64,000 nt of DNA from Aurantiacibacter sediminis (GTDB taxonomy: Bacteria > Pseudomonadota > Alphaproteobacteria > Sphingomonadales > Sphingomonadaceae): the NCBI RefSeq assembly GCF_016019885.1, contig NZ_JAEANY010000004.1:269054-333053 (forward strand), given 5' to 3'. Of this stretch, positions 11,146-42,559 are shown piece after piece. A model generated the notes under the pieces. It ran no database searches. It saw only the letters and a list, made by a program, of their open reading frames with translations, and was not told the origin of the DNA. How positions within the stretch are numbered: the stretch's first letter is position 1; every line of letters begins with the position of its first letter. Both the position numbers and the translations under genes were made by a program.

Positions 11146-11153
11146 GGAGTGCT

Positions 11154-13436: not shown

Positions 13437-13465
13437 TACGCTCTCCGATCTGCTCTTCAAGATGG

Positions 13466-15762: not shown

Positions 15763-15836
15763 GCCGATTGCTGCGCCCAGTACAGTTGGCCAGCGCGCTT
15801 TAAATTCGCCTCGGATCGTGGGAGAGGAAGCTTCAG

Positions 15837-16964: not shown

Positions 16965-16968
16965 AATA

Positions 16969-19918: not shown

Positions 19919-20017
19919 GAAAAAGATGTTGGAAAGCGTTCGACCTTTTTGTATGACGATCTGATAACATGAAAAGCACAAGTGGCAAGAGGCTGCGATG
20001 TGCATGGGAGGGTAACA

Positions 20018-22477: not shown

Positions 22478-22490
22478 ATAGACTGCACTG

Positions 22491-23201: not shown

Positions 23202-23210
23202 GAACAAGCG

Positions 23211-26798: not shown

Positions 26799-26804
26799 GT
26801 CGAT

Positions 26805-27590: not shown

Positions 27591-28414
27591 CAGCGTGCCA
27601 GATAATCCAACACGACGCGGTTGAAGCGTTCGCGTTGCTCGGTTTGCACCCAGTGACCACATTCGGAGAACACATGAAGCTCGGACTGCTTCATCCTACC
27701 GAAAAACTGGAACACACTGTCATAAGGCGTCACCCGATCATCGCGGCCCCACAGAATCAGGCTTGGCGTATTAAGTTGCTCAATATCCTTTTCCATGAAG
27801 CGGTAAGGGCTTTCGGGTGATGGCGGTCCCGGCTGAGCGGCGAGCAATTTCGGGTCAGTCGCCGATGCAAATCGTTCATCGACCAACTCGTCGGTAATCA
27901 GCGACTTGTCGTGAACCATTGTCTCCAGCAAACCGCGCATCTTGGCTTTAGTCGGCCCCTCGCCCTGATACATTTCGCCCATCGCCTTCCAACCTTCGGT
28001 AGGGAACGGAGCGAAAGTCGGCATGGCGATTCCTGGGCCCATCAATACCAGCCTGCCGACCAATTCGGGCCGATGAATACCGATCCAGATCGCAACCGCC
28101 CCACCAAGCGAATTTCCGAGAATATGCGCACCAGTAATCTCCAGCGCGTCCATAATATCGACGATGCCCTTGGCGTAAAACGCAATCCGCTCGCCGTCGG
28201 GTTTCGCCATGGTGCTTCCGCCATAGCCGACGAAATCGGGGAGCAGCACGCGGTAATGCGCCGCAAAAGCCTGAAGATTGCCGCCGAAATTACTTAAAGC
28301 GGAAGCGCCCGCGCCGCCGCCATGAAGCATCAGTAGGGGCTGACCCTCACCAGCTTCTGTGACATGGATTTGATAATCGCCAGAGGTGATCAGCTGCGTT
28401 TTGGTTTCGATCAT
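27590..28414 (-). CDS. meta-cleavage product hydrolase (alpha/beta hydrolase)
   Basis: A 274-residue C-C bond hydrolase of the BphD/DmpD type. The nucleophile is S102 in LGNSLGGAV, the acid is D225 or D226 in LWGRDDRVTP, and the base is H254 in ECGHWVQTEQ. The oxyanion stretch is HGGGAGASALSNFGGN (31-46), typical of BphD relatives. It hydrolyses the ring-fission product made by the extradiol dioxygenase into a dienoate plus a carboxylic acid. It lies 26 bases downstream of the dihydrodiol dehydrogenase gene. Acid specificity (benzoate, alkyl or terpenoid acid) is unknown. Confidence 0.93.
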   Translation of the reverse strand: MIETKTQLITSGDYQIHVTEAGEGQPLLMLHGGGAGASALSNFGGNLQAFAAHYRVLLPDFVGYGGSTMAKPDGERIAFYAKGIVDIMDALEITGAHILGNSLGGAVAIWIGIHRPELVGRLVLMGPGIAMPTFAPFPTEGWKAMGEMYQGEGPTKAKMRGLLETMVHDKSLITDELVDERFASATDPKLLAAQPGPPSPESPYRFMEKDIEQLNTPSLILWGRDDRVTPYDSVFQFFGRMKQSELHVFSECGHWVQTEQRERFNRVVLDYLAR

Positions 28415-28440
28415 TGGTGGCCTTCCGGCTTTGGTTTATT

Positions 28441-29268
28441 TTAACTGGCAGCAGGGTCGAAATCGCCCCAGCCATTGGGGCCTGTCGCGCCGCGAATATT
28501 GTACCCACACATGCAGTCGATGGCAGTGCCGGTCATGGACGCGTTTTCGCCATCAGCAGCGAGCAATACATAAGGAGCGGTGAAGGCAGATGGCTCAGGC
28601 TGCTCGCCCATCGGCAAGAACATCGGCGCCGCCTCTTTCAAAGGAAGTTCCTTGATCGATTTGCCTTCCAAACCGAGCGAACTCGGTCCGCGCAAATCGG
28701 TCAGGGCTGCGCCAACTGCAACGCCGTTTACGCGTACATGCGGCGCGAGCTCGTACGCCAACTGCCGCATTACGCCGAGCCCTGCATGTTTGGATGCAGT
28801 ATAGACAATCCCGCCGCCCGCGCTGTTCACAGACGCCGTGGAAAGCGTGAAGATCATACAGCCCTTGCGCTTGGCGAGTGCCACAGCAGCGGCTTTCGCA
28901 CCGAGCATGTAACCCTTCAAGTTCGTGCCCAGCACCTCGTCATAAGTCGCTTCGAGCTGGTCGGGTGTCATGTCGACCATGCGGGTGCCCCAATCCCACA
29001 CACCTGCGTTGGCGACGAAAATGTCCAGCCCGCCAAACGCTTCAACCGTTTCGGCCACCGCACGCTCATTATCGGCATAATTGCGGACATCTCCTGCGAT
29101 AGAGATCGTATCGCCGCCTAGACTTGCTGTCGCAGCGTCCAATTTGTCGTCTGCGAGCCCCATTATGGCGACCTGCGCGCCTTCGGCTATGTAAGCTTTA
29201 GCGACCTCCATTCCGATGCCAGACGCGCCGCCCGTGATAAGTGCGACTTTTCCTTCAAGCCGTGCCAT
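28441..29268 (-). CDS. cis-dihydrodiol dehydrogenase (SDR, BphB-like)
   Basis: A 275-residue short-chain dehydrogenase. Signatures are ITGGASGIGMEVAKAY (11-26), VANAGVWDW and VYTASKHAGLGVMRQ with the YxxxK catalytic pair. The long C-terminal part with CMCGYNIRGATGPNGWGDF is typical of dihydrodiol dehydrogenases such as BphB/TodD, which rearomatise the cis-dihydrodiol made by the ring dioxygenase. It touches the beta-subunit gene at 29268. Position between the dioxygenase and the hydrolase supports this role. Confidence 0.9.
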   Translation of the reverse strand: MARLEGKVALITGGASGIGMEVAKAYIAEGAQVAIMGLADDKLDAATASLGGDTISIAGDVRNYADNERAVAETVEAFGGLDIFVANAGVWDWGTRMVDMTPDQLEATYDEVLGTNLKGYMLGAKAAAVALAKRKGCMIFTLSTASVNSAGGGIVYTASKHAGLGVMRQLAYELAPHVRVNGVAVGAALTDLRGPSSLGLEGKSIKELPLKEAAPMFLPMGEQPEPSAFTAPYVLLAADGENASMTGTAIDCMCGYNIRGATGPNGWGDFDPAAS

Positions 29269-29837
29269 CAGAAGAAAATTCCCAGATTGGCACTCAGGAT
29301 CAATGTCTGGTCAAAAAGGATGGTTCTCCGCGCGATTTCAAAACCGGCAGGCGCGGAGGAATTTTCGCGGATATGATCGTGGCGGGTGCCGAAGAAGAAT
29401 TCCTCATCGTCCGCAGCGCGGGCACGGTAGACGGAAAAATTGCTGTCAACGATATAAGCATTCGCGCTGACCGAATGTGCCACCTGCACATTGGTGATCA
29501 GGTGGCGTGTGCGTGACGGCGGATCCTCCGACCAGCTCTTGTCGGTTTGCAGCCGCTTCACGCGCAGCTGCATATATTCCTTCGTGTCTTCGAAGTGCTT
29601 GGCTTCGTCCTCGGAGGCCCATTCCTTAGTCCGTTCACGCGGCAGGCGATTATAGCGCGCAGGCGCTTCGTAATGCAGGTCTTCGGCCAGCATTGCGAGC
29701 CAATCGTCAAACCGTCGCTCATCAATAGCTTGTGCTTCGGCATAGAGAAACTGCGACAAGCGGAACGTCGTTTCCATATCAGAGGCTTGGGCATCGCTGG
29801 GCCGCTGATACGGCATCGTCATTTCAAACGAGGACAT
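29268..29837 (-). CDS. aromatic-ring-hydroxylating dioxygenase, beta subunit
   Basis: A 189-residue small subunit with the NTF2-like fold of BphA2/NahAd. It has FLYAEAQAIDERRFDDWLAML, LHYEAPARYNR, TRHLITNVQVAH and FGTRHDHIRE. It structurally supports the alpha3-beta3 oxygenase. The ATG at 29837, with AAGGGGAA upstream, is preferred over an in-frame codon at 29879. Only two bases separate it from the alpha-subunit stop. Confidence 0.94.
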   Translation of the reverse strand: MSSFEMTMPYQRPSDAQASDMETTFRLSQFLYAEAQAIDERRFDDWLAMLAEDLHYEAPARYNRLPRERTKEWASEDEAKHFEDTKEYMQLRVKRLQTDKSWSEDPPSRTRHLITNVQVAHSVSANAYIVDSNFSVYRARAADDEEFFFGTRHDHIRENSSAPAGFEIARRTILFDQTLILSANLGIFF

Positions 29838-29839
29838 AG

Positions 29840-31171
29840 CTATTCCCCTTGGACCGGCTGGAGCATAAGGTCGCGCCACCAGCTGTAAAATTCGCGGCTC
29901 GCGGCCTCACTTTGCGCACGGTCAGTGCGGCCAGGGTACTTGCCGCTCGGATCTTTGCTCTCATTGGCGCCAATCATGTTGTTGAACAGCGTCTTGCGCG
30001 CCTTGGTGCCGCGCAGAACGCGCTGTATCTCTGTCCAGTTCTCGGCATCGTCCTGTTCGAACACTCCCGATGAGGCGAAGGTCATCTGCGTCTTGATGCG
30101 GCATTGCTTTTTGATATCTTCGGGTGCGTCGCGGTCCACCAGAGTCCAAGCCCAGACCTCCATCGCATTGGGGCCCTTTGGCTGCCAAATCCGCAATGTC
30201 TGGTTCAGAGGCAGAATGCCCATATTAGGAAACATGTTGGCGTGGACGAATTGCGTTTGCTTGGCCGCCTGTTCACCAACCAGCTTAGCGTGAGCATCTC
30301 GCGTCGATTGATTGTAGCGCATTACCTCCATTCCCATCGCCATCGCGGTCTGCATGTCGGACATTTCGACCATAGGTGTCGCGACCCCGCCATGGCCGCG
30401 ATCGCGGAACTGGCGCCCTTCGAGCGGTGGTGGTTCCTGATATTCCATGCCTTCGGGCATCATTGCCAGCGCGCTGGCGACATGCGTGTAATCGAAATGA
30501 TAGATGTCGCTGGCGAACTGTTCCGCGCCGAATTTCCAATTGGCGGGGACTTCCCATTTCTGCACACCGCCTATCACCTCGGTGCCCCCCGGACGGTTGA
30601 ACATTGCCTCCCAATACCATCGGGTTTCGCCTAGCGAATCCTCGAACGAAGGCGCATCCTCGTCCCAAGTGGCAAAGATGAGCCCATAAAAATTGTGGAT
30701 TTTAGCAACCTTGATTGCGCCCCACTCGGATTTGTCGATCCGGTCGCCACCCACTGCGTCGGACTTGGAAATACTGACCAGATTGCCGCCGAGATCGTAG
30801 GTCCAGCCGTGATAAGTGCACTGGAACGCCTTTGTCTTCCCTAAATCGGCTCGGCATAACCTTGCGCCGCGATGACGACACTGATTGAGGAAGACAGCAA
30901 TCGAACCGTCTTTCTGCCGAACCACCAGCACCGGATCCTCGCCCATACGGCTGGCGAAGAAATCGCCGGCCTTTGGTATCAGGCTCTCGTGCGCGACCAG
31001 CAGCCAACAGCGGCCGAAAACGCGCTCCTGCTCGAGCTCGTGCAGATACGGGTCGGCATAGATTTCGGGGCCAATCGTTCCGGTTTCGCTATCGATCAGC
31101 GACGCCACCTTTTCTTCCAGCGCGCTACGGACGCCAGGCGTGAGGGTTATGGGTGCAGGATGTAAGGCCAT
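29840..31171 (-). CDS. aromatic-ring-hydroxylating dioxygenase, Rieske alpha subunit
   Basis: A 443-residue catalytic subunit. The Rieske ligands are C98, H100, C118 and H121 (CRHRGARLC...CTYHGWTYD). The mononuclear iron region reads EQFASDIYHFDYTHVA, with the usual D..H....H spacing. It adds O2 across an aromatic ring to make a cis-dihydrodiol. ATG at 31171 with AGGA upstream is preferred over a TTG at 31201 that would overlap the ferredoxin gene. It should take electrons from the Rieske ferredoxin encoded just upstream. The ring substrate is unknown. Confidence 0.95.
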   Translation of the reverse strand: MALHPAPITLTPGVRSALEEKVASLIDSETGTIGPEIYADPYLHELEQERVFGRCWLLVAHESLIPKAGDFFASRMGEDPVLVVRQKDGSIAVFLNQCRHRGARLCRADLGKTKAFQCTYHGWTYDLGGNLVSISKSDAVGGDRIDKSEWGAIKVAKIHNFYGLIFATWDEDAPSFEDSLGETRWYWEAMFNRPGGTEVIGGVQKWEVPANWKFGAEQFASDIYHFDYTHVASALAMMPEGMEYQEPPPLEGRQFRDRGHGGVATPMVEMSDMQTAMAMGMEVMRYNQSTRDAHAKLVGEQAAKQTQFVHANMFPNMGILPLNQTLRIWQPKGPNAMEVWAWTLVDRDAPEDIKKQCRIKTQMTFASSGVFEQDDAENWTEIQRVLRGTKARKTLFNNMIGANESKDPSGKYPGRTDRAQSEAASREFYSWWRDLMLQPVQGE

Positions 31172-31197
31172 ATCGTGTCCTGTCAGTCTTTCTAAAT

Positions 31198-31506
31198 TCA
31201 ACCGCGGTCCAGCATCACCGCGCCATCTTCTACCCGCACAGGATAGGTTTGGAGCGGCTCGAATGCAGGAGGACCCAGTGCCTCTCCAGTGCGCAGATCA
31301 AACTTCGACGCATGCCAAGGACATTCGACCGTGCAGTCATCACCCACCCATCCATCGTCCATCGGCGCGTCTTCATGCGTACAGAAAAACTGGGTGGCGA
31401 AAACATCGGTGCCCACGCGAAAGAGGACAATTTTGGGTTCGCCATCGACGACGAAAGTTCCCTCATCTTCGATATCATCGAGAGACGCTACAGTTTCAAA
31501 AGCCAT
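31198..31506 (-). CDS. Rieske-type [2Fe-2S] ferredoxin
   Basis: A 102-residue electron carrier of the BphA3/NahAb class. The cluster ligands are C42, H44, C62 and H65 (CTHEDAPM...CPWHASKFD). The protein is full length for the class from the ATG at 31506; an in-frame extension upstream has no match. It links a ferredoxin reductase to the ring dioxygenase. The reductase gene is absent from this window, so it must be encoded elsewhere. Confidence 0.95.
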   Translation of the reverse strand: MAFETVASLDDIEDEGTFVVDGEPKIVLFRVGTDVFATQFFCTHEDAPMDDGWVGDDCTVECPWHASKFDLRTGEALGPPAFEPLQTYPVRVEDGAVMLDRG

Positions 31507-31520
31507 GTCCAACCACCTTA

Positions 31521-32405
31521 TTACATGGAAGGAATTTGAAAGCGGTGTCCCCATGCAGACGGCGCATCGTGAGTGAGAACGTGCCAAGATTCATCATCGA
31601 CTTCGAGCCCGCCCCAACCATACTCGACATCAAATCCCGATGGCGTCTGATAATAGGCGCTAAGCATCTCGTCATTGGAATGCCTGCCTAAGGTGAGGGA
31701 GATATGGGTCTTGCGTTCTTCGGCGCGGTACAGGGCCCGCCCAACATCGTCGACGCTTTCGACTTCAAGCATGAAATGCTGGAGCTTCTTAGGATATGGC
31801 AATTGGAACAACGCCAACGAATGGTGGCGCGCATTGCAGCGCAGGAAAGCAAAGCTAAGTGACTCGCCCGACGGCGCTTGTGCATAGATATAGTCGGACA
31901 ACTTGAGACCAAGCACGTCGATATACCACTTCTCTGCCGCCTTAGCATCTGAGCTATTCAGGACGATATGACCGAGTCCTTGCCGTCCGGTTTTGAAGCG
32001 AACGCCGAGCGGACTCTGGAAAGGCTGCTCTGTGCGCTGGCGCGGGCCGTAATAAGCCTCGCAACGCATTCCATCGAGATCATTGAAAGTAATAAGAGCC
32101 TGAACATACCGGTCAGCAGCTAGATCCTCGCTACCATCGGCCACCTCGATACCGGAGTCTTCCAGATTCGATTTCAATGCAGCCAATGCAGCAGCGTCGG
32201 CGACTTCCCAGCCGACATAGGCGATGTCATCTGGGCCATCCGGGATCAGTCGGATACGCGAGGCATATTCGTCTAAGCGCAAATCCACCGAGCCATCTTC
32301 ACGTTCGACAGCCTGGAGGCCAAGGAAGTTCATCGCGTAATCGCGCCATGCCTCAAGATCGGACACGCCGAACCCCAGATAACCCAGCGCTTGTACATGA
32401 CTCAT
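31521..32405 (-). CDS. extradiol ring-cleavage dioxygenase (BphC-like)
   Basis: A 294-residue two-domain type I (vicinal oxygen chelate) extradiol dioxygenase, the length of 2,3-dihydroxybiphenyl 1,2-dioxygenase. Fe(II) ligands are H146 (GLGHIV), H210 (LQHFML) and E261 (DVEYGWGG), with the catalytic H195 in ARHHSLALF. These positions fall almost exactly on the BphC numbering. It opens the catechol ring next to the two hydroxyls. It is the first gene of the operon and diverges from the TetR gene. A palindrome lies 26 bases upstream of its start. Confidence 0.95.
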   Translation of the reverse strand: MSHVQALGYLGFGVSDLEAWRDYAMNFLGLQAVEREDGSVDLRLDEYASRIRLIPDGPDDIAYVGWEVADAAALAALKSNLEDSGIEVADGSEDLAADRYVQALITFNDLDGMRCEAYYGPRQRTEQPFQSPLGVRFKTGRQGLGHIVLNSSDAKAAEKWYIDVLGLKLSDYIYAQAPSGESLSFAFLRCNARHHSLALFQLPYPKKLQHFMLEVESVDDVGRALYRAEERKTHISLTLGRHSNDEMLSAYYQTPSGFDVEYGWGGLEVDDESWHVLTHDAPSAWGHRFQIPSM

Positions 32406-32430
32406 CGAAATTGCTCCCAGAATATTGTTG

Positions 32431-32448
32431 CCATACGGCAGCGTATGG
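32431..32448. promoter_or_regulatory. palindromic operator candidate upstream of the meta-cleavage operon
   Basis: CCATACG (32431-32437) and CGTATGG (32442-32448) are perfect 7-base arms around GCAG. The site lies 26-43 bases before the extradiol dioxygenase start and within the region shared with the divergent TetR gene, so it is a good candidate TetR binding site. Confidence 0.6.
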
Positions 32449-32554
32449 AAACACGCTAACCCATCCGGTACCGCAGATCAATCAGTTTTCGCTTAAGCTT
32501 GCCACATCGTTCACGACATGGACTCAGCAACAGCTAGTCAGATGTAAAACAGCT

Positions 32555-32566
32555 GGGCTATAGCCC
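32555..32566. promoter_or_regulatory. perfect 12-base palindrome near the TetR promoter
   Basis: GGGCTATAGCCC is self-complementary and lies about 50 bases before the TetR-family start. It may be a second binding site for autoregulation, but short GC-capped palindromes also occur by chance. Confidence 0.3.
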
Positions 32567-32616
32567 CCTCCAGGACACAGTTTTTCTCTGAATTACTTAC
32601 CTGGGGCACCGCGACC

Positions 32617-33219
32617 ATGAACCAGCCTGATGAGCGATTAAAAACCAAGCAAGCGAGGCGAAAAGGTGTTTCGCGACTTGATGCTGCGGACTGGGTGACG
32701 GCGGCCAATGGAATGCTGCAGACAGGCGGAATTGACGCAGTGCGTATCGAACCGCTCGCCCGTAAACTTGGTGTTACCAAGGGCAGCTTCTATTGGCACT
32801 TTCAAGATCGCGAAGCCCTTCATACTGCCATTCTGGACCAATGGCGACTTCGCCATACAAGCGCCTTCATCAATCGCCTAAATCGCAGCGTGAACCGGCC
32901 GCGGGAGCGATTGCAATTGCTGGCGGCACTCCCGCGAAGGGGCAAGGAAGTCAGTAAGGACGTCAAATTGGAATTGTCGATCCGCGAATGGGCCAAACGC
33001 GATGATGCCGTCCACACAATCGTCAGCGAAGTAGACGCCAGCCGGCTGGACTATATCGCAACTCTGATGATCCAATGCGGACTCCCTGCAACCGTGGCGC
33101 ACGACAGGGCATTCTATTTTTATAGCGGGCTGCTAGGGGAAGCATTGATCGTGGAAGAAGTCGCGGAATCGCTCAGCGGTTTGCTCGATCTTCTCTTATT
33201 CGAGACTACCTCTGACTAG
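32617..33219 (+). CDS. TetR-family transcriptional regulator
   Basis: A 200-residue regulator. The N-terminal helix-turn-helix (about 20-65) reads GIDAVRIEPLARKLGVTKGSFYWHFQDREALH, a textbook TetR DNA-binding domain. The helical C-terminal half should bind a small ligand. It diverges from the extradiol dioxygenase gene across 211 bases that hold an 18-bp and a 12-bp palindrome. It likely represses the aromatic operon in the absence of a pathway compound (inference). Basic residues open the protein (LKTKQARRK). Confidence 0.9.
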   Translation: MNQPDERLKTKQARRKGVSRLDAADWVTAANGMLQTGGIDAVRIEPLARKLGVTKGSFYWHFQDREALHTAILDQWRLRHTSAFINRLNRSVNRPRERLQLLAALPRRGKEVSKDVKLELSIREWAKRDDAVHTIVSEVDASRLDYIATLMIQCGLPATVAHDRAFYFYSGLLGEALIVEEVAESLSGLLDLLLFETTSD

Positions 33220-33765
33220 CCTGAAGTCGATAGCGATTTTATCATTCTGGACCGCACCAAAGAGCGGATCTAAGGCTTCCGAAACGCTACTTAACCTGTT
33301 GAGCTTGGTCTATCGGGCAGCTTGGATCGGTGAGCAGAGACCAAATGTCGTGCAGACTGCTCGTATCCTGATGATGAGTGCGACCTCGCGATGCGGTAAT
33401 GTGTGCGCCAACGCTTAATCATAGCGAATTCGTGCTTCAGTAAAGAAAAGCCTCTGCCGTCAAGCAAACAATCCCTGATCTCGTTGATGAAGTCTTGTAG
33501 GTAGTCTCTTAAAGCGCAAAAGCCTCGATGCGATCATCCTTATTCCCAAGCGACCGAACTCGTCGAGGGGGTGAGGTGAGACCTCGAGTTGATTGCGCAA
33601 GCCGGCGTGATCGAACGGACAGCGCGCCGCTACAACTTGGCCAACTCTGCCAGAAATTCATCGCTCCTCATTCAAATAGGATTCGTATCGCCAAACGTTG
33701 GCGCATGGACTCGCCGCTTCCAGTAAGCATGCAGGACGCCTTGTTGCCGTGGATTATTTCACAAA
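33220..33765. other. non-coding stretch, probably decayed mobile DNA
   Basis: No intact gene is seen over about 545 bases. A short open stretch at 33576-33725 translates to VIERTARRYNLA..., which vaguely recalls the RRIATRYDKLA motif of some IS5-group transposases. This is too weak to call. The stretch ends against the clearer IS5-family remnant. Confidence 0.35.
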
Positions 33766-33963
33766 ATGGCCTTGGCTTCAGCCTTGGTTCGGCAGGCGCT
33801 ACGCAGAATCAGAAAATGGATGGTCCAGGTCAACAAGCGATCAGACCACGCCAATGAGTGCCAGATTTTTCCCAGACGCGGGGTCGTTCAGGCGACTTTT
33901 GCGTGGCTCGGTTTGAACCGCGCTCATGCCACGGACTTCGAACAAACCATCGCCTTCGCGTGA
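33766..33963 (+). pseudogene. C-terminal remnant of an IS5-family transposase
   Basis: A 65-residue frame contains VNKRSDHANECQIFPRRG, then VVQATFAWLGLNRAHATDFE and TIAFA. This matches the conserved C-terminus of IS5/IS427-type DDE transposases (usually ..KRSD..KGF.VLPRRWVVERTFAWLGR.RRLAKDFE..). The usual W and E of RRWVVERTF are changed here (RRGVVQATF). Nothing resembling the catalytic core lies upstream in frame, which stops at 33724. It is a dead fragment and marks earlier IS activity between the aromatic operon and the 2-oxoacid dehydrogenase genes. Confidence 0.75.
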
Positions 33964-34013
33964 CTAATTCCCGCCTCGACCCAGTTTTTCTTCCGCCGCA
34001 TCGCAAGACTATG

Positions 34014-34032
34014 AGATTAATACAATTAATCT
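34014..34032. repeat. AT-rich inverted repeat beyond the E2 gene
   Basis: AGATTAAT (34014-34021) and ATTAATCT (34025-34032) are perfect arms around ACA, 21 bases past the stop of the E2 gene. Without GC content or a T-run it is not a strong terminator; it could be an IS end scar or a weak hairpin. Confidence 0.4.
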
Positions 34033-34052
34033 TGAACCAGACTCTAGCAAAG

Positions 34053-35291
34053 CTAGCTCGCCCAGTTCTCGATTACCTCAACGAAGCGCGTGAGCCAGGC
34101 ATTGGTCTGATGGCCATCGACAACCCGGTGATCGATGGTGAGCGAAACATAGCACATTGGCCGAACCTGCATGGCATCCTGCCCGTCTATTTCTCGCACT
34201 ACTACCCGCTTCTCCATCTTGCCGAGCCCAAGGATGGCCGATTGCGGCTGGTTGATAATAACGGGCGTGGCGAGCAGCGACCCGGAGACGCCGTGGTTGG
34301 AAATGGTGAAAGTACCGCGCGCCATATCGGCCGCACCTAACTGGTTGGATCGGGCGCGCTCTGTGATGTCGGTCAGGCGTCGTGCGATCCCGCGCAGCGA
34401 CAAGTCCTGTGTATTGTGGATCACTGGCACAACAAGACCCTTTTCGCCGAGCGCAGTACCAATGCCGATATTGACGTTCTCGAAAAGTTCGAGACAGTCG
34501 TCGTGCCAGCGACTGTTGATCGCGGCTGCGACTTTCATCGCCTCCGCAGCAGCAGCGACGAAATAGGCTGAGAAAGTGAGTTTTACACCCTTTGCTTCAA
34601 ACGCAGCCTTATTGGCAGCGCGGTGCGCGATGATCGCGGAGAGATCGGCTTCAAACACCGCTGTAACGTGTGGCGCGGTCTGGACCGAGTTGGCCATATT
34701 GCGAGCAATTGCCAGACGCATATTATCGTGCGGAATAGTACGCGCGGTCAGGCTGGCCGGTGTCGGTGCAGGCTCGGCGACTTCAGTCGAGGACTGTGCA
34801 GGAACCGCTGCCGCTCCGCTGGCGACGAATTTGTCAACATCGGCGCGGGTTATCCGCCCCCCGCGTCCGGTTCCTGAAATTTGTGCAGGGTCGAGGCCAT
34901 GTTCGCCCAAAGCCTTACGCACTGAAGGCGAAAGCGCGGTGAGAGGATCGATAGCAGGCCCCCGTGCCTTTGAAGATTCGCGAAGCTGCGATTCCGATTT
35001 TTTAACTGCACCCCTTTGCTCAGCTGGCTGGCTGCCGACTTGCACTTCTTCCTTCACATCGGTCGGCTTAAGGTGCCCGAGCACCGCACCCGGTTCGGCC
35101 TCGGAATCGGTATCGAGCAGGATTTCCACGAGCACACCCTCGCTCGTAGCGGAAACTTCCTGTGTCACCTTATCAGTTTCCAATTCCACGAGTGGATCGT
35201 CAATCTTTACGTGGTCACCAACTGATTTTAGCCAGTTGCGGACGGTGGCGGTGGTGCCTTCGAGTTCGGTCGGGACCAATATATCTGTCAT
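34053..35291 (-). CDS. 2-oxoacid dehydrogenase E2 (dihydrolipoamide acyltransferase)
   Basis: A 412-residue core subunit with the usual three domains. The lipoyl domain (1-78) carries K41 in LETDKVTQE. A peripheral subunit-binding domain (about 120-155) contains SPSVRKALGEHGLDPAQISGTG...RITRADV. The catalytic domain (about 185-412) ends with the active-site TIDHRVVDGHQ (about 385-395). Linkers are alanine/proline-rich. It lies 12 bases downstream of the fused E1 gene. Together they form a branched-chain or acetoin-type oxoacid dehydrogenase. No E3 gene is nearby, so the complex must share lipoamide dehydrogenase. Confidence 0.93.
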   Translation of the reverse strand: MTDILVPTELEGTTATVRNWLKSVGDHVKIDDPLVELETDKVTQEVSATSEGVLVEILLDTDSEAEPGAVLGHLKPTDVKEEVQVGSQPAEQRGAVKKSESQLRESSKARGPAIDPLTALSPSVRKALGEHGLDPAQISGTGRGGRITRADVDKFVASGAAAVPAQSSTEVAEPAPTPASLTARTIPHDNMRLAIARNMANSVQTAPHVTAVFEADLSAIIAHRAANKAAFEAKGVKLTFSAYFVAAAAEAMKVAAAINSRWHDDCLELFENVNIGIGTALGEKGLVVPVIHNTQDLSLRGIARRLTDITERARSNQLGAADMARGTFTISNHGVSGSLLATPVIINQPQSAILGLGKMEKRVVVREIDGQDAMQVRPMCYVSLTIDHRVVDGHQTNAWLTRFVEVIENWAS

Positions 35292-35303
35292 GTTAGGCCC
35301 TCC

Positions 35304-37385
35304 CTAGTAGCCGATGAGTTCATCGATCTTGGTACGTATACTCTCGATCGAGGGAACAACTGAGTTGAGCAGCACCGGGTTATGCGGACTGGGCAAATCG
35401 GGCATCGTCAGCCGCGCCACAGGAGCATCGAGATGGAGAAAGGCGTCCTCGACCACGACAGCAGCAATTTCCGCACCGAAACCTGCAGTTTGCAAATCTT
35501 CATGCACGATCAGGCAGCGGCGAGTGCGCCGCACCGATTCGAGCACGGCATCTTTATCCCACGGCATTAACGTACGCAGGTCAAGGACATGGACAGAGCG
35601 ACCCTCCGCTGCTTCTTCGCAGCGCGGAACCATCGCCCCCCAAGTCACGATAGTCAGGTCGTCGCCCTCCGCAACACTGCGCGCTTTGCCGAATTCGAAC
35701 GCGTAGTCATCACCAGGATAGGGTCGCCGCGCCCAGGTATCGTCGAGCATCGCACGATGTTCGAAGAAGATCACCGGATCGTTGCCGCGCAGTGATGTGC
35801 GCAACAATCCCACCGCATCTTCAGCATTGGAAGGCACTGCCACTTTCCAACCTGGGTTGTGTACGAAAGCAACCTCGTTGGTCTGGCTGTGCCAGGGGTC
35901 GCCGCATTTAAAGTAGCCACCCGGGATGCGTACCACCATTGGCGCAGCGAACCGGTTGTTCGTGCGCCAGCGGATTGTGCCGCAATCGTTGATCTGCTCT
36001 GTGGCGGGCTCGGCATATTTGCGGAACTGAATTTCCGGGACGGGCATTAGTCCGGCCAGCGCCATACCAACGGCTCGCCCGATAATGCCTTCTTCCGAAA
36101 GGCTGGTGTCGAACACGCGCTCTTCGCCGAACTTGTCCTGTAATCCCAGCGTCACACCATGGACTCCGCCCTTCGGCCCGATATCCTCGCCGAATAAGAC
36201 TACGCGCTCGTTGACTTGGAGTTCGTGCTCCAACGTGCGCCGAATAGCGGTGACCATGTTCACGCGCTGACCACTCTCGGGCTGCGGAATATCGCTGCTT
36301 TCGGGCGGCGTGTAGCCAAGAGTCCACTGGCCGCCCATCTCCTGCATTCTACCCTCGAAAAACACGTCGTCGGCCACAGTTGCGGGCTCCGCTGGCTGAC
36401 GCGCTTCTGCCTGCTCGCGCGCATTCTCTGCAACGTCAGCGGCTCGATTCTCAATAGCATCCCACTCCTCCGGTCCGATGACCGACGGGACCAAGAATTG
36501 CTTCATTTTGGGGAGCGGATCGCGCGCCCATTCGGATGTAATGGTATCCTTATCTTTGTAGGCCTGCGTATCTTGGAAGCTGTGTCCCTGGAGCCGCGGC
36601 ATTGTCAGTCGCAGCATCGCAGGGGCGCGATTTTCGCGCACGTACTGGACCGCCTGCTCAGTAAGCTGCGCTGCTTCCTGCGGATCGGTTCCGTCACCGG
36701 ATATAATTTCCAGGCCTTGCCAGCTAGCAAGGTTAGCAGCGATATTCCCGCCCGGTGTTTGCACGGTGGAAGGTACCGAAATGCCAAAACCATTGTCCTC
36801 AATATAGAACAGCAACGGCAACTGCTGCGTGGTCGCGATTGTGAGCGCAGACCAGAACCCGTTGGAAGCAACCGAGCCGTCACCGCCAAGTACTACACCG
36901 ATAGCCTTGTTGTAGGCGCTGTCCTTAAGCTGCGTCCGATAATACTCAATCGCCTGCGCCCAGCCTGCGGTTGGCGTGTACTGCGCACCCACCCCGCCGC
37001 ACATCGGCAGCGCCGAGGCGCCACTGTCATTGGGGTAGTTGAACACAACGCCGATATCCCGGCCATCGGAATAACCGCCGCTGCGCCCCATGGCTGATGC
37101 CAGTGCGTCCGACACATCAACGCCCAACGCCAGTAGGATTGGTCGCGAGCGGTAGTACCCGCAGATTGCATCGTGCTGCTCAGTCAATTGCTGGCCAAGA
37201 AGTAATTGCGCCATATCATGACCGCGCGCGGAGAATTGATAAAGAACCTTCTTCTCAGGAACGAGCCGCTCTTCCTCCATCGCGTCCAGTGCGCGCGAAA
37301 GTTGCATCAGGTACGTCAAGCGATGCCAGTCGGGGCTGTTCGCCTTAGCTGACCTAGTGGTCCGGGCTTTTGTGCTCGTTGCCAT
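35304..37385 (-). CDS. 2-oxoacid dehydrogenase E1, fused alpha and beta subunits
   Basis: A 693-residue thiamine diphosphate enzyme. The alpha half (about 20-340) has the ThDP motif GGDGSVASNGFWSAL (167-181) and IEDNGFGISV. The beta half starts near 372 (VNMVTAIRRTLEHELQVNERVVLFGEDIG) and has the catalytic-site region FRKYAEPATEQI and a C-terminal transketolase-like domain with VLDLRTLMPWDKDAV. The fusion is known in branched-chain-type E1 proteins. The divergent Lrp/AsnC gene matches the BkdR arrangement of branched-chain oxoacid dehydrogenase operons. Confidence 0.93.
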   Translation of the reverse strand: MATSTKARTTRSAKANSPDWHRLTYLMQLSRALDAMEEERLVPEKKVLYQFSARGHDMAQLLLGQQLTEQHDAICGYYRSRPILLALGVDVSDALASAMGRSGGYSDGRDIGVVFNYPNDSGASALPMCGGVGAQYTPTAGWAQAIEYYRTQLKDSAYNKAIGVVLGGDGSVASNGFWSALTIATTQQLPLLFYIEDNGFGISVPSTVQTPGGNIAANLASWQGLEIISGDGTDPQEAAQLTEQAVQYVRENRAPAMLRLTMPRLQGHSFQDTQAYKDKDTITSEWARDPLPKMKQFLVPSVIGPEEWDAIENRAADVAENAREQAEARQPAEPATVADDVFFEGRMQEMGGQWTLGYTPPESSDIPQPESGQRVNMVTAIRRTLEHELQVNERVVLFGEDIGPKGGVHGVTLGLQDKFGEERVFDTSLSEEGIIGRAVGMALAGLMPVPEIQFRKYAEPATEQINDCGTIRWRTNNRFAAPMVVRIPGGYFKCGDPWHSQTNEVAFVHNPGWKVAVPSNAEDAVGLLRTSLRGNDPVIFFEHRAMLDDTWARRPYPGDDYAFEFGKARSVAEGDDLTIVTWGAMVPRCEEAAEGRSVHVLDLRTLMPWDKDAVLESVRRTRRCLIVHEDLQTAGFGAEIAAVVVEDAFLHLDAPVARLTMPDLPSPHNPVLLNSVVPSIESIRTKIDELIGY

Positions 37386-37471
37386 CTACTATTCTCTCGA
37401 TTGCATCGCCGGTGACTGGCTGGAAATTACGAGAATATTTTATCCAAGTTGCAAAAGCTCAATCAGAATCC

Positions 37472-37501
37472 TTGACATTCTCCATGTGAGCGGAACATAT
37501 T
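37472..37501 (+). promoter_or_regulatory. sigma70-like promoter candidate for the Lrp/AsnC gene
   Basis: TTGACA (37472-37477) and CATATT (37496-37501) are separated by 18 bases, and an AAAGG ribosome-site-like stretch follows at 37524-37528. It points at the Lrp/AsnC gene. Confidence 0.5.
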
Positions 37502-37557
37502 TTCGCATATCTCAATAATCTTGAAAGGTTTATATCATCGACGACATTGACCGAAAA

Positions 37558-37992
37558 TTGGTACGATCACTTCAAAAAGATGCAGCGCTCAGCCAGCAAC
37601 GCTTGGCAGAGAGCATCGGGGTTTCACCCGCATCGCTTTGGCGAAGACTAAAGAGCCTCGAGAAAACAGGGCTTCTTGGAAAACTGGTTCGGCTTGTCGA
37701 TCCGGTCGCAGCTGGGCTGTCGCTTGATGTCATCTGCCAAGTACAGATGCAGAACCACGATGAGGAAACGCGAACCAGCTTCGAGGAGTTCGTGGCCTCT
37801 CGAGGAGAGATTCTTGCTTGTTTTTCGACCTCGGGCGAATGGGACTACCTATTACACATTATTGTGCCAGATATCGCCGGGTACGAACGGTTGCTAATGG
37901 AGGATTTACTTCGCCACCCCGGCGTTTCTCAATCGTCATCACACTTCGCTTTGAAGCGGATAAAGCACACGACGGTCCTACCCATTTCGTGA
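37558..37992 (+). CDS. Lrp/AsnC-family regulator (BkdR-like)
   Basis: A 144-residue regulator from a TTG. The helix-turn-helix is LSQQRLAESIGVSPASLWRRLKSLEKTGLL, followed by a RAM/AsnC ligand domain (about 62-135). The frame continues upstream as IDDIDRK, exactly the conserved start of the family, but no ATG, GTG or TTG lies between 37525 and 37558. Translation may therefore begin at a near-cognate ATC/ATT (37534-37546) that follows AAAGG. It diverges from the E1-E2 genes, so control of that operon by branched-chain amino or oxo acids is likely. Confidence 0.85.
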   Translation: MVRSLQKDAALSQQRLAESIGVSPASLWRRLKSLEKTGLLGKLVRLVDPVAAGLSLDVICQVQMQNHDEETRTSFEEFVASRGEILACFSTSGEWDYLLHIIVPDIAGYERLLMEDLLRHPGVSQSSSHFALKRIKHTTVLPIS

Positions 37993-38106
37993 CATCGGCG
38001 GCCAGACGATTTGCATGGCACACACCCGATCACCGGATTTCCATAAGCGCAGGGGTCTTGCCAGATTAACGTGGCAGCCGGATTGGCGCGTTGTTAAGTC
38101 GCACCG

Positions 38107-38208
38107 ATGAGCCGCAAATCCAGAGCTAAGCCGCTGTCTCCATTCCGTCGCTTCTACTCATCGCCCGAGGTGATCCGCCTTGTTGTCATGAAGTATGTGC
38201 GGTTTCCC
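38107..38208 (+). pseudogene. N-terminal fragment of an IS6-family transposase
   Basis: The first 34 codons read MSRKSRAKPLSPFRRFYSS, then PEVIRLVVMKYVRFP, which I recognise as the conserved N-terminus of IS6/IS26-type transposases (normally ..SPFRYFNSSPEVIRLVVMMYVRFPLSLRNVEDLL). After YVRFP the match stops abruptly and unrelated sequence (DAKFAH...) follows in frame. Such elements drive replicon fusion and adjacent deletions, which fits the rearranged state of this region. Confidence 0.8.
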
Positions 38209-38229
38209 GATGCCAAGTTCGCCCATGTT

Positions 38230-38544
38230 CCTACGTCGAGCTCTCCCTTCTCCCCGACATTGGGATCGGATTTCTCGAGCAGGCTCTCGACCATTGCAGG
38301 GCAAAGCCGCAGTCAGAGCGAGACCTATTCCAACCTTGCACAGCAATCGACGAGCTCGGCGGTGATGGTCGAAATTCCCATTCTCGATCTCCAGGCCTCG
38401 GCCGGATTCGGGGCGATTGCGGCGAGCGAGAATGCCTACACCCGGTTTGGTTTCGATGAACGCTGGCTGCGCGCACTGACGCCCGCGAAGAGCGCCAGCC
38501 TGTCGATCGTGCGCGTGTTGGGGGATTCCATGGAGCCCATCCTC
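38230..38544 (+). pseudogene. truncated S24-family (LexA/CI-like) repressor-peptidase
   Basis: The plus-strand frame carries VEIPILDLQASAGFGAI, then FGFDERWLRAL and LSIVRVLGDSMEPIL (38368-38544). This is the start of an S24 peptidase domain, with the nucleophile serine in GDSMEP. The frame then runs into the reverse complement of another gene, so the catalytic lysine half is missing. The N-terminal DNA-binding domain is not recognisable between the IS6 scrap and 38368. It was probably the repressor of a mobile element. Confidence 0.72.
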
Positions 38545-39824
38545 ACGAGACGTTTGAAGCGCAGCGGACGCAATTGGCGTTTCACTTCGAGCGAAAAGAG
38601 GCGGGTTTCGGCGCCAGAAACAGGATCGGTGCGGAGAATTTCATCGCCGAGCACCGCGAAGCTATCGACGCGGAGCGTTTCCAGACCCAGGTCGAGCGTG
38701 CCAGCCCCGCGTGCGGCCTCGATCCGCGCTTCAACAAGACCGAGATATTCCTCGAAGATGCCGTTCTGCAACGCAATGGGAAGCGCGAGGATGCGGTTGA
38801 GCCAGCGCTGGATGGTGGGCAAATTATCGGTAAGGCCGCCATCGGGGCTCTCGAGCTTGAGGCCGGTTCGCTCGACGAAGTCCCCGAAACCGACTGCCTC
38901 GAGTTTGCCATCGTAAAGCAGGTGGAACCAGCGCGAGAGAGCGTCCTTCGCATAATCGCTTTCGAGATTGTCGGCAGGGTCGAACAGGTTCTGTCCCCCT
39001 GTCTGACGCTGGCCGCGTGTGAGAGCGCCCAATGCGTCGAGCCTTCGCGCGATGGTCGAGATGAAGCGGCGTTCGCCCTTCACATCGGTCGTGACCGGGC
39101 GGAACAGCGGCGCAGAAGCCTGGTTAGTACGGTTTGTCCGGCCAAGACCCTGGATTGCATTGTCGGCACGCCAGCCCGGTTCGAGGAGGAAATGGACTCG
39201 GCGCTGCTGGTTCTGGGCATCAAGGTCGGCGTGATAGGATTGTCCCGTACCCCCTGCGTCCGAGAACACCAGAATCCGTTTGGTTCCGTCCATGAAGCAC
39301 TGTGCTTCAGCGACGTTTGCGCTTGCGCTTCGACGTTCAAGCCGCTGCTGACCGTCGCGTCCCCAGACCAACCTGCGCGAGCGGCCCGTGACCTCGGCCA
39401 CCGCCTCGGTCCCGAAGTGCTCGATGATTGCATCGAGTGCAGTAGCGATAGGGGGCAATGCGCAAAGCTGCTCGATCAGTGCTTCGCGCGCGGCGATGGC
39501 CCGCGAGCAGAGAACGGGATTGCCGTGCTCGTCGCTCATCGCTTCAGAACGCAGATTGCCCTCCTCGTCAGTAAAGACCTGCATCAGGCGCACGGGAAAG
39601 CTCTTCGCGAGATAGTCGATGACATATTCGCGCGGAGAGAGATCGATATCGAGCGCTTCTCGCTCCTCGTCCGAGAGATCGGCCAGGCGACGGTCGAGCA
39701 TGGCCTCGGCTGTCGAAACCAGTTGCACGACCACCGAATGATTTTCGCTGAGCGCCTCTTCCATCGCCGGGATCAGGCTCGGCAATTTCATCGAAAGCAG
39801 AAGCTGCGCGAAGAAGCGCTGCTT
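38545..39824 (-). pseudogene. C-terminal half of a Strawberry-notch-family helicase
   Basis: About 427 residues beginning FFAQLLLSMKLPSLIPAMEE and running through VVQLVSTAEAMLDRRLADL, RILVFSDAGGTGQSYHADL and NAIQGLGRTNRTNQASAPLF (helicase motif VI-like). This matches the SNO/strawberry-notch helicase C-terminal domain found on alphaproteobacterial plasmids and ICEs. The N-terminal ATPase domain is absent. Upstream the frame fuses without a stop to an integrase N-terminus, and downstream it reads through antisense to the S24 fragment to 38436. The fused frame is 613 codons from the ATG at 40277. Confidence 0.8.
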
Positions 39825-40277
39825 TTCGAGCCGCTTTCGCCATGCACGCAGATGATGCTTTCTGAGCTTGTCTAACTTAACCTTGGCAATGGCGTCATCA
39901 TATACGTGACGGCGAAAGACGCCTTCGGCGATTGACCCAGGTTTGTCGCTGAGATAGGCCCGACAGGCATCTTCAACCGTATCCAGCTTCTCTGTTCGCA
40001 GCCCTCCCGCTTCTACCAACTTGGCGAATGCCTCTGCATCCCTTTTGGCCGTGGCGAACACATCATGTCCGGACAAGGTCCCATAAGGTCCAAGATTCTT
40101 GCGGCGGTACTTTCGCGCGTCTTCATCATAGGCCCGAGCGAACCATGATCCCTTTCCACCCCTGCGGGACGGTCGATATCCAACATACCAACCAGCCTGG
40201 AGGCGCTGCCAATGAGGTTCCTTGTCGCTTCGCGGCTTCAGTTTATCACGTTCGCCAATCTTGCTCAGGTCAGGCAT
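39825..40277 (-). pseudogene. int: N-terminal fragment of a tyrosine integrase
   Basis: From the ATG at 40277 about 151 residues look like the arm-binding and core-binding N-terminus of an integrase: WQRLQAGWYVGYRPS, GSWFARAYDEDARKYRRKNLG, then DDAIAKVKLDKLRKHHLRAW. The catalytic R...H-x-x-R...Y domain is absent: near residue 151 the sequence switches to a helicase. It starts 136 bases from a tRNA 3' half on the other strand, the normal position of an element's integrase next to its attachment site. The chimeric reading frame stays open but cannot encode an active recombinase. Confidence 0.8.
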
Positions 40278-40292
40278 TTCCGCACAGCTTTT

Positions 40293-40323
40293 GTATGAAA
40301 CGTATGAAACAAGTATGAAAAAC
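40293..40323. repeat. three direct repeats GTATGAAA upstream of the integrase
   Basis: GTATGAAA occurs at 40293, 40302 and 40313 (spacings 9 and 11), directly upstream of the integrase start. These could be integrase arm sites, excisionase sites or an autoregulatory site. Confidence 0.55.
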
Positions 40324-40383
40324 TTGGGTGGATCGATTAAGACAATCCTAGACAAATCTATCTGTTTTTCAAGGATTTTTTAG

Positions 40384-40402
40384 TCCCAGATAATCCCAGA
40401 TA
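40384..40402. repeat. paired direct repeat TCCCAGATA next to the attachment site
   Basis: TCCCAGATA occurs at 40384-40392 and 40394-40402, with a related TCCTAGACA at 40346-40354. The pair lies 12 bases from the tRNA half, where integrase core or arm binding sites are expected. Confidence 0.5.
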
Positions 40403-40413
40403 GTCCGTATTCC

Positions 40414-40463
40414 CATCCTTCACACGGGTGGGGTCGCAAGTTCAATCCTTGCCGCGCCCACCA
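40414..40463 (+). other. attachment site: 3' half of tRNA-Val(CAC)
   Basis: The sequence folds as the 3' half of a tRNA. The anticodon stem CATCC/GGGTG is fully paired around loop TTCACAC (anticodon CAC at 40421-40423). A 5-base variable loop follows, then T-stem GCAAG/CTTGC with loop TTCAATC, acceptor strand CGCGCCC, A73 and CCA. Bases before 40414 do not give a D-arm or a 5' GGGCGCG strand, so the tRNA is incomplete. This is what an element leaves at its far end when its integrase recombines in the anticodon stem-loop. The intact tRNA would be at the other end, left of the window. Confidence 0.82.
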
Positions 40464-40508: not shown

Positions 40509-41228
40509 ATGGTCGAGACACATTCACTCGCTTCACGGTCGACAAATTTCTGTCAGGCCTGCTCGGTGCGCAACCGGGCGATCTGTGCGGATCTGGACGA
40601 TAGCGAGATTGAAGTGCTCAACGCCATCGGTCGCCGCCGCACGCTTGAAGCGGGCGAAGACCTGCTGTGGGAAGGTGATGAGGCGCTGCTGGTAGCGAAT
40701 GTCATCACCGGCATGCTCAAGCTCTCGACCCATACGGCAGACGGGAAAGAACAAATCCTGGGCCTTGCCTATCCATCAGACTTCCTCGGCCGCCCTTTTG
40801 GCGAGACGACGCCGCATGGCGCGCAGGCGCTGATCCCGTCGCAAGTGTGCGTTTTTGCGCGCGCGGATTTTGACCGGTTTGCGAAGGAACATCCTAAGCT
40901 GGAGCACAAGCTGCTCGAACGCACCCTGCGTGAACTTGACCGCACACGCCGCTGGATGCTGCTGCTGGGAAGGATGAATGCAGAGCAGAAAGTCGCCAGC
41001 TTCCTCCTCGAAATGTCCGATCAGATTTCGCCGCAATTCGCCGACGATACCAAGGCGATCGAATTGCCGCTGACCCGCCAACAGATCGCCGATATTCTCG
41101 GCCTGACGATCGAGACGGTCAGTCGCCAGCTCAGCACATTCCGCAAGCAAGGCCTTATCGACCTTCCATCGCGCCGCGAAGTGATCCTCAGCAATCGCAG
41201 CGCGCTCGAAGATATCGCGGGCCTCTAG
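40509..41228 (+). CDS. fnrL: FNR/FnrL-type oxygen-sensing regulator
   Basis: A 239-residue Crp/Fnr protein. Cysteines C15, C18 and C26 (CQACSVRNRAIC), plus C114 (SQVCVF), match the four ligands of the oxygen-labile [4Fe-4S] cluster with the C-x2-C-x7-C spacing of alphaproteobacterial FnrL. The cyclic-nucleotide-like sensor fold covers about 30-150, and the helix-turn-helix is LTRQQIADILGLTIETVSRQLSTFRKQGLI (E-x-x-SR recognition). It should switch genes for low-oxygen growth at TTGAT-N4-ATCAA sites. It begins just past the tRNA-Val half and so is the first core-genome gene right of the island. Confidence 0.92.
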   Translation: MVETHSLASRSTNFCQACSVRNRAICADLDDSEIEVLNAIGRRRTLEAGEDLLWEGDEALLVANVITGMLKLSTHTADGKEQILGLAYPSDFLGRPFGETTPHGAQALIPSQVCVFARADFDRFAKEHPKLEHKLLERTLRELDRTRRWMLLLGRMNAEQKVASFLLEMSDQISPQFADDTKAIELPLTRQQIADILGLTIETVSRQLSTFRKQGLIDLPSRREVILSNRSALEDIAGL

Positions 41229-41278: not shown

Positions 41279-42559
41279 ATGCACGATATCCGTTTCATTC
41301 GCGAAAACCCGGACGATTTTGACGCAGCACTGGCGCGCCGCGGGCTTGAGCCGCTGGCCGGCAAATTGCGCACACTTGACGAACAGCGCCGCCTCCTGAC
41401 GACGCAGCTGCAAGAGGCGCAAAGCCGTCGCAATGAAGCCTCCAAAGCGATCGGTCAGGCGATGAGCCAGGGCGATAAGGAGAGAGCCGAAGCGCTCAAG
41501 GCCGAAGTGGCCGAGATCAAAGCGATGATGCCCGGTCTGGAAGAGCAGGAAAAGGCGCTTGGCGAAGAGCTGAACGCCGCGCTCGCCATCATCCCCAACC
41601 TGCCAGCCGATGACGTGCCCCAAGGCGAAGATGAAAGCGACAATGTAGAAGTCAGCAGCTGGGGCGAGAAGCGCGACTTCGCCTTCACTCCGCTGGAGCA
41701 CGCCGACCTTGCCCCGCCGCTCGGCATGGATTTCGAAACCGGCACCAAGCTTTCAGGCGCTCGCTTCACGTTCCTGCGCGGCGACATGGCCCGGCTCCAC
41801 CGCGCTATCGCGCAATTCATGCTCGACCAGCAGACGCGCGAGAATGGCTACACCGAATGCAATCCACCGGTGCTGGTGAATGACGATGCGATGTTTGGGA
41901 CGGACAAGCTGCCCAAGTTCGCCGAGGATAGTTTTCGCACCACGGACAATCGCTGGCTCATCCCCACATCCGAAGTGAGCCTCACCGCCTCGGTCGCGGG
42001 CGAGATTATCGACGATCTGGCGGAGCCGCTCCGTCTTACCGCGCATACGCTCTGCTTCCGAAGCGAAGCGGGGTCGGCGGGCAAGGATACGCGCGGCTTT
42101 ATCCGCCAGCACCAGTTCGAAAAGGTCGAGCTGGTCAGCATTTGCAAGCCCGAGGATAGCGAAGCCGAGCACGAGCGGATGACCGCCTGTGCCGAAGGCA
42201 TCCTGCAAGCGCTGGACCTGCCCTATCGCAAGGTGCTGCTGTGCACCGGAGACATGGGCTTTGGCGCGCGCAAGACCTACGATCTCGAAGTGTGGCTGCC
42301 CGGTCAGGGTGCCTATCGCGAGATTTCGTCATGCTCCAACACCGGCGCATTTCAGGCGCGGCGGATGAATACCCGCTATCGCCCCGAAGGCGGGAAGAAG
42401 ACCGATTTTGTCCACACGCTGAACGGCTCGGGCCTTGCCGTGGGACGTACTCTGGTGGCGGTGTTGGAGAACTACCAGGAGGAAGATGGCTCGGTCATCG
42501 TGCCGGACGTTTTGGCGCCCTACATGGGCGGTGTGGAGATCCTTCGGAGCAGGCAGTGA
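41279..42559 (+). CDS. serS: seryl-tRNA synthetase
   Basis: A 426-residue class II aminoacyl-tRNA synthetase. The N-terminal long coiled-coil arm (about 30-105, [24 protein letters not shown]) binds the tRNA-Ser extra arm. The catalytic core shows motif 2 [14 protein letters not shown] and motif 3 [17 protein letters not shown] near 390. Length is normal. It is 50 bases downstream of fnrL, and a palindromic REP-like repeat separates it from surE. Confidence 0.97.

Follow-up and report, generated by a model that had tools for sequence, protein, structure and literature searches.

The window analysed here, a 64,000-nucleotide stretch of the Aurantiacibacter sediminis genome (C9:269054-333053 of 2.67 Mb in 14 contigs), carries at 40414..40463 what we regard with high confidence as the right attachment site (attR) of a 63-kb genomic island inserted in the gene for tRNA-Val(CAC) by the mechanism set out below. 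Sequence comparison reveals both ends of the island, a common core, arm-type repeats, an empty site in relatives, a foreign composition and a catabolic cargo. The island is of a known kind, the tRNA-gene island; a correspondence between two residues of its integrase family and the bases of the arm-type repeats could matter beyond this genome.

The displaced tRNA half and the ends of the island

The features that define the right end of the island are the following.

40414..40463, + strand: attR, displaced 3' half of tRNA-Val(CAC), gene positions 26-75 (98% over 50 nt to the intact gene)
1..40413, no strand: right 40.4 kb of the 63,182-bp island, delimited by the intact tRNA gene, the half and a step in composition
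40294-40300, 40303-40309 and 40314-40320, + strand: three TATGAAA arm-type repeats, the last two 11 bp apart

A preliminary description of the window, made from its letters alone, had read 40414..40463 as the last 50 nt of tRNA-Val(CAC) lacking a 5' half, and had predicted an intact copy further left. That copy was found at C9:246260-246334, on the same strand as the half and 22.7 kb left of the window, with a single mismatch over the 50 nt (E 4e-19). The match begins at gene position 26 and is unbroken over positions 29-75, the mismatch being a T in the half and a C in the intact gene at position 28 (29 in standard numbering). The stem-loop pairs overall as described, but 'perfectly pairing' was slightly too strong because this T leaves one G-U wobble in the anticodon stem. 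The sequence preceding 40414 is indeed not a tRNA 5' half, ARAGORN found no tRNA in the window, and Rfam returned for 40200-40700 only a chance match to mir-71 below the gathering score. The genome contains no further full copy of tRNA-Val(CAC), the third match being tRNA-Val(GAC). An intact gene elsewhere with no direct repeat, named in the description as evidence against itself, was looked for and did not occur.

Measured between the last bases of the intact gene and of the half, the island spans 63,182 bp. It does extend beyond the window as had been supposed, its left 22.7 kb (C9:246335-269053) running to the intact tRNA gene. The comparison of composition that had been suggested shows a step at the boundary: the guanine plus cytosine (GC) content is 57.0% inside the island, compared to 61.3% in the left flank and 61.6% in the right. 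A pair of TATGAAA repeats with 11-bp spacing lies just inside each end (C9:246371 and C9:309356, the latter being window 40303), with a third copy adjoining the pair at the right end. The spaced pair occurs at no other site in 102 kb on either strand, and in none of 100 shuffles. The segment has an intact tRNA gene with a 3' fragment in the same orientation, a block of identity starting at the anticodon stem-loop and an empty site in relatives (below).

In the mechanism that we propose, a tyrosine integrase would have recombined the anticodon-loop core of the element's attachment site (attP) with the identical stretch of the tRNA gene. At the left end the intact gene would now be completed by the 3' half that the element brought, and the 3' half originally in the chromosome would have been displaced to the island's right end, where it adjoins the inward-reading integrase gene. 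If strand exchange took place in the anticodon loop, the half from the loop onward would be the original chromosomal 3' end, and the T at gene position 28 would derive from the element's own core.

That the half is a chance sequence can be excluded on these comparisons, given the E-value of 4e-19 and the recurrence of the same tRNA and integrase layout at 79 of 80 related loci. A broader alternative would detach the half from the segment to its left and regard it as a tRNA copy that arose by chance or by decay. In its favour, tRNA fragments can be relics of older events, and one relative (G002) does carry a 20-nt remnant at the same place. This alternative is nevertheless extremely improbable in view of the matching pairs of arm repeats, which stand at each predicted end but at no other place in the 102 kb, the GC step at the boundary, and the recurrent layout.

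Comparison with congeners was informative about the site itself. The gene order in Aurantiacibacter is sppA, tRNA-Val(CAC), a variable segment, serS and surE (the names sppA, serS and surE were assigned by eye). The two genes next to the half in the window are:

40509..41228, + strand: fnrL, Crp/Fnr-type regulator, right flank (Pfam)
41279..42559, + strand: serS, ancestral right neighbour of tRNA-Val(CAC) in the genus (named by eye)

The site is empty in three congeners, as had been anticipated for relatives lacking the segment, with serS following the tRNA gene after 71, 83 and 94 bp (G020, G029 and G012, respectively). In nine others, for which the fetched stretch contains both the tRNA gene and serS and no half, serS lies 0.46-11.8 kb after the tRNA (G009, G016, G030, G022, G018, G002, G036, G005, G035). 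The genome nearest by flank identity, G002, is not empty, having 7.4 kb and the 20-nt tRNA remnant at the site. A half of at least 45 nt is present besides the intact gene in at least 12 of 36 genus relatives (G004, G007, G010, G011, G014, G015, G017, G019, G021, G026, G027, G033); in G021 the tRNA gene and half bracket a 17.8-kb element of its own, with serS 71 bp past the half and a flank resembling that of the empty G020. Conservation of the gene order of the first 40 kb together with fnrL and serS in most relatives, the other counter-evidence named in the description, was not observed.

The preliminary description placed core genes to the right of the half, and both fnrL and serS are there, but only serS is the ancestral neighbour. 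Among the genomes checked, fnrL lies between the tRNA half or remnant and serS only in G000 and G002, its closest homologue (60-77%) being located elsewhere in G012, G020, G021, G030 and G035. No second close copy is present in G000 or G002, where the next best match is 36%. We propose that fnrL is a regulator that moved into the hotspot.

It is possible, though we consider it doubtful, that two or more elements inserted in succession at this tRNA and, having lost their inner ends, now make up the interval as a composite. In relatives such as G010, G019, G082 and G093 a half is followed by another left end (judged by eye) at this site, and the integrase of the present island is fused to a fragment of another gene (below), a chimera that shows internal sequence loss. 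However, the sequence of the half does not recur a third time in the genome, the two ends carry the same arm class, and the GC content is fairly even across the island (0.549-0.603 per 4 kb). A single 63-kb island remains our preferred reading.

Several other arrangements were observed in related genomes. Four loci (L069, L102, L130, L145) have a tRNA half followed by the apparent left end of a second element, again by eye, and look like tandem elements at one tRNA. In G017, 190 kb separate the intact tRNA-Val(CAC) from a half located 1.45 kb from serS (G017:C1:1023009-1213775); arm repeats of the same class are present at both ends, and this interval is perhaps one very large element. Two loci (L066 in G002, L096 in G016) have a short inverted-repeat sequence, GTTTCGACTGGAGA...CCGTCGAAAC, directly behind the tRNA CCA, and in G002 an element-like left end comes after this insert. 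L089 and L103 are element-like left ends with a tRNA-Val 3' half, no adjacent integrase match and no tRNA 5' half, which we propose are secondary sites or rearrangements.

The integrase family and its truncated copy in the window

Next to the half, on the island side, lie two fused gene fragments.

39823..40277, - strand: integrase remnant, first ~151 residues (98% identical to residues 1-151 of L088)
38436..39822, - strand: C-terminal fragment of a strawberry-notch (SNO) gene, fused in frame to the integrase remnant (Helicase_C_4, E 2.4e-98)

The open reading frame at 38436-40355 has an ATG at 40277, which leaves the 136 bases between integrase N-terminus and half that had been described. An integrase N-terminus is therefore beside the half as claimed, but only about the first 151 codons of the gene remain. 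Alignment with intact relatives at the DNA level ends close to 39823, no PF00589 match was found in the reading frame, and this copy lacks the catalytic domain. Compared with the intact 389-aa reference L088, the remnant comprises the arm-binding domain, with K19 and R59, and part of the core-binding domain. The SNO fragment, whose identification was upheld by the Helicase_C_4 match, has separate matches in other loci for 38538-39629 and 39621-39824, and is itself perhaps a mosaic with a break near 39625. Since the catalytic domain is absent and an SNO fragment is fused in its place, the island should no longer move by itself and is probably immobile on its own, although an integrase of the same arm class acting in trans might still move it.

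The integrase inside the island is an N-terminal remnant only; in other genomes intact relatives adjoin the same half. A genome scan for relatives returned 114 loci, and the analysis covered the best 80. Of these, 79 have a tRNA match on the upstream side of the integrase and in antiparallel orientation to it, mostly at a distance of 113-185 bp (the exceptions being L133, 2 bp; L158, 87 bp; L128, 281 bp), and in 78 of the 79 the match starts at gene position 25 or later, mostly at the anticodon stem. The best labels, taken from the closest match among the tRNAs of the window's own genome, are Val-CAC, Arg-CCG, Thr-GGT, Gly-GCC, Pro-CGG and Ala-GGC. L158 matches nearly a full tRNA-Gly, L163 and L166 match weakly (positions 43-76, 88%), and L183 has no match. 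Such integrases are present in 54 of 397 genomes of a family sample (E 1e-80) and 3 of 385 of a class sample (E 1e-60), the latter all belonging to the window's own genus or family; no relative was found in phage (E 1e-20) or plasmid (E 1e-60) collections at those thresholds.

PF00589 was the only Pfam family above cut-off in the four intact integrases scanned, which gave no match to the DUF4102 domain found at the N-terminus of P4-like integrases. All of 33 integrases aligned share the catalytic residues R248, K273, R340-H341 and Y372, and in an alignment of the family YTLR or YDxR stands at the HxxR box. For the N-terminal domain there was no Pfam match, no meaningful match to the PDB using HMMER, and no significant Foldseek match when the domain was used alone. 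In having the family catalytic domain (PF00589), an N-terminal domain and candidate arm sites near the core, these proteins resemble tyrosine recombinases with an arm-binding (AB) domain (PMC8138268), from which they differ in that their N-terminal domain matches no Pfam model and in their reading of the HxxR box. The arm-type binding domains of P4-like integrases (PDB 3jtz, 3rmp, 3ju0) are among the closest known systems. Islands in tRNA genes (tDNAs) whose attachment site is centred on the anticodon, termed class A, are common, with 2083 tabulated (PMC4383910). As in the class A islands of Islander, we find an intact tDNA, a displaced 3' fragment in the same orientation and, as an N-terminal remnant, an integrase gene inside (PMC4383910); unlike in them, the integrase here is truncated, lies at the fragment end and reads inwards.

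Arm repeats and the integrase residues associated with them

Both element ends were extracted for 43 genomes, 23 pairs of which lie on one contig. Arm classes, defined by eye as TATGAAA, CATGAAA, CTGTAAA, GTACGGAAA and GTGTCTAA, differ between elements yet agree end-to-end in 21 of 21 typable same-contig pairs; the other two pairs were untypable, with no repeat seen at the right end of G014 and the left end of G076. The best 20-bp match averaged 18.3 within pairs compared to 15.6 between pairs, a mean not reached in any of 20,000 permutations. On a tree built without integrase residues 1-65, arm class requires 20 changes, compared to a shuffled mean of 46.2 (as low in 0 of 200 shuffles), and tRNA target requires 9. 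A Gly-GCC clade (L123/L135/L136) retains CATGAAA and a CTGTAAA clade (L068/L139/L140) retains Val-CAC, and hence the arm and core addresses evolve apart. Identity over the whole domain says little about arm class: N-domain identity is only ~3-7 points higher in same-type than in different-type pairs.

Two residue positions correspond closely to the repeat bases. A rule was drawn from 81 of 88 integrases (the 80 relatives, 7 from the genus and the window copy) after removal of duplicates (L109, L114, L116), the window copy and the truncated L137 and L183, and L133, for which no repeats were found. In this set D19 goes with CATG (28/28), K, R or Q at position 19 with T at arm base 1 (45/45, plus L074 by register), N19 with TTATGAAA (2/2, the label of L121 and L124 being set by eye) and G19 with CTGTAAA (4/4, in two separate clades); L143, whose N-terminus is broken, shows F at column 19. 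V59 goes with T at arm base 3 (17/17), and L or M at position 59 with C at base 3 in at least one repeat (16/16, the repeats of L181 and L184 being mixed).

The rule was fixed in writing before new integrases were fetched (one, L197, had been retrieved earlier and was looked at only afterwards). There were 60 unique sequences below 97% identity to the training set, 43 of them at 55% or more and 41 of these with repeats, none being found for L266 and L267. The identity of the 41 to their nearest training integrase was 57-97%, so some are close kin. For residues covered by the rule it was correct at base 1 in 39/39, base 3 in 22/22, base 5 in 13/13 and G19 in 1/1, whereas a guess from the nearest training integrase gave 31/37 for base 1 and 18/22 for base 3. 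In five of the 41 (L356, L331, L336, L363, L361) position 19 or 59 holds a residue that the rule does not cover, and L334, L336, L363 and L364 are counted as right at the bases tested, the remainder of their motif being different. Several assignments were made by eye: the repeats of L182, L184, L362 and L365, the repeat classes of L074 and L180, and the registers of L336, L363 and the CTGT class. Viral integrases below 52% identity were excluded from the counts; of five with R19 and repeats, L268, L277, L279 and L280 fit at base 1 and L276 does not, and a further one, L288, has S19, outside the rule.

Over 122 integrases, the normalised mutual information between column 19 and base 1 was 1.00 (110 rows), the next column reaching 0.82, and that between column 59 and base 3 was also 1.00 (70 T-arm rows), the next reaching 0.46; rows without registered repeats were left out, as were L334 and L364 and, for base 1, L362.

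An association of this sort might reflect inherited relatedness rather than contact. Integrases do cluster by arm type on the tree, as the count of 20 changes indicates, and the associations of base 5 (3 pairs) and of R59 are indistinguishable from phylogeny. At base 1 there are four pairs, all fitted by residue 19 and equally by columns 52, 110 and 162. Strongly supported branches carry only 3 of the pairs differing at base 3, 2-3 of which agree and none of which disagrees. Against this, the tree built without residues 1-65 yields 12 closest tree-disjoint pairs with a difference at base 3, and a consistent difference at residue 59 accompanies it in all 12 (in 10 of 10 without the by-eye L182, L184, L362 and L365); the next best of the 389 columns reaches 3. 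The held-out rule also outperforms the nearest-relative guess. We therefore consider relatedness an improbable explanation for the association as a whole. Slightly less probable still is that the direct repeats are binding sites for an excisionase (recombination directionality factor, RDF) and not for the integrase. Known RDF sites, those of Apl for example, consist of direct repeats spaced by one turn of the helix (PMC7498355), but the integrase's own residues predict the repeat bases here, and the repeats are present at both ends in all 21 typable pairs.

These patterns suggest that two integrase residues read the short repeats just inside the island ends: the N-terminal domain would bind these repeats, recognising base 1 through residue 19 and base 3 through residue 59. 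We think it likely that this amounts to a readable and switchable arm code in which residue 19 sets base 1 and residue 59 sets base 3, and in which residue 20 may set bases 2 and 4. As part of this joint reading, D19 would specify C; K, R, Q or N at 19, T; G19 would accompany CTGTAAA; V or R at 59 would specify T; and L or M at 59, C. The pairing of aspartate with cytosine is an ordinary protein-DNA contact.

A precedent exists in four Cluster K1 mycobacteriophages which differ in their arm sites, for which N-terminal residues 17 and 19 were proposed as candidates, Adephagia being a transitional K1 phage with mixed arm sites (PMC3203893). Like those integrases, the ones studied here include close relatives with differing arm-site consensus. 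Unlike the four K1 phages, for which the available passages describe no test (PMC3203893), our data comprise 122 integrases, mostly from Sphingomonadales, with tree-controlled pairs and a held-out test, and we do not equate the two positions numbered 19. For Cluster J phages, no such correspondence between residues and arm sites is described in the available passages (PMC3706429). No paper on this island, its hotspot or a wider arm code was found among titles and abstract openings of the open-licence literature, and, apart from the four-phage precedent, a residue-base code on this scale looks new.

If the code holds, one or two substitutions would be enough to give an island at a shared tRNA a new private arm address with its chromosomal target unchanged, and elements using the same hotspot could in this way be shielded from one another's integrases. 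Such a code would help to predict which integrase can move which island, and to explain the presence or absence of cross-mobilisation at one hotspot. As many islands share one tRNA address, their matched end pairs form a natural data set for arm-site recognition by tyrosine integrases, and the association points to two directly testable residues.

Catabolic cargo and other genes in the window

The gene content of the island includes the following.

Left part of the island: paaZ, paaG, paaA, paaC, paaE and a thiolase (all above NCBIfam cut-offs)
3620-4807: moeA-like gene (below cut-off)
5406-6452: moaA (above its cut-off)
11154..13523, - strand: dimethyl sulfoxide (DMSO)-reductase-family molybdoenzyme (below cut-off)
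24841..32405, - strand: meta-cleavage cluster (NCBIfam and Pfam)
34053-35291, - strand: 2-oxoacid dehydrogenase E2
35304-37385, - strand: fused 2-oxoacid dehydrogenase E1

The meta-cleavage cluster comprises genes for 4-hydroxy-2-oxovalerate (HOV) aldolase and acetaldehyde dehydrogenase, both above NCBIfam cut-offs, a hydratase, a hydrolase, a short-chain dehydrogenase/reductase (SDR) family dehydrogenase named by eye, the beta and alpha subunits of a ring-hydroxylating dioxygenase and an extradiol dioxygenase; the hydratase, hydrolase and dioxygenase alpha subunit fall below the cut-offs and are therefore named at family level only. The phenylacetate and meta-cleavage genes support the catabolic character previously ascribed to the island, and the interpretation of the segment as the right part of a catabolic genomic island in tRNA-Val is supported by the intact tRNA gene, the GC step, the empty sites and the rarity of the dioxygenase alpha subunit. 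Of 40 genus genomes searched for this subunit (E 1e-100), only the island's own gave a match and the other 39 none; the island thus explains the arrival of a gene set for aromatic degradation in this strain. Window positions 14000-38000 have only partial matches to plasmids, at 60-80% identity in 66 records. There are two TonB receptors in the window part of the island. A gene at 38107-38913 that had been called S24 has no Pfam match, and this assignment was not confirmed.

Genes for a molybdoenzyme large subunit, a ferredoxin-type Fe-S subunit, moaA and the moeA-like gene are scattered over the island (3620-13523 and C9:267005-267640), which suggests a putative molybdenum hydroxylase or dehydrogenase that is self-supplied. 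To the right of the island, 46161-49547 encodes a 1128-aa protein resembling, by eye, an N6-adenine DNA methylase or restriction enzyme, which carries an in-frame low-complexity insert (PSPLAGEGG...NPLPQGER).
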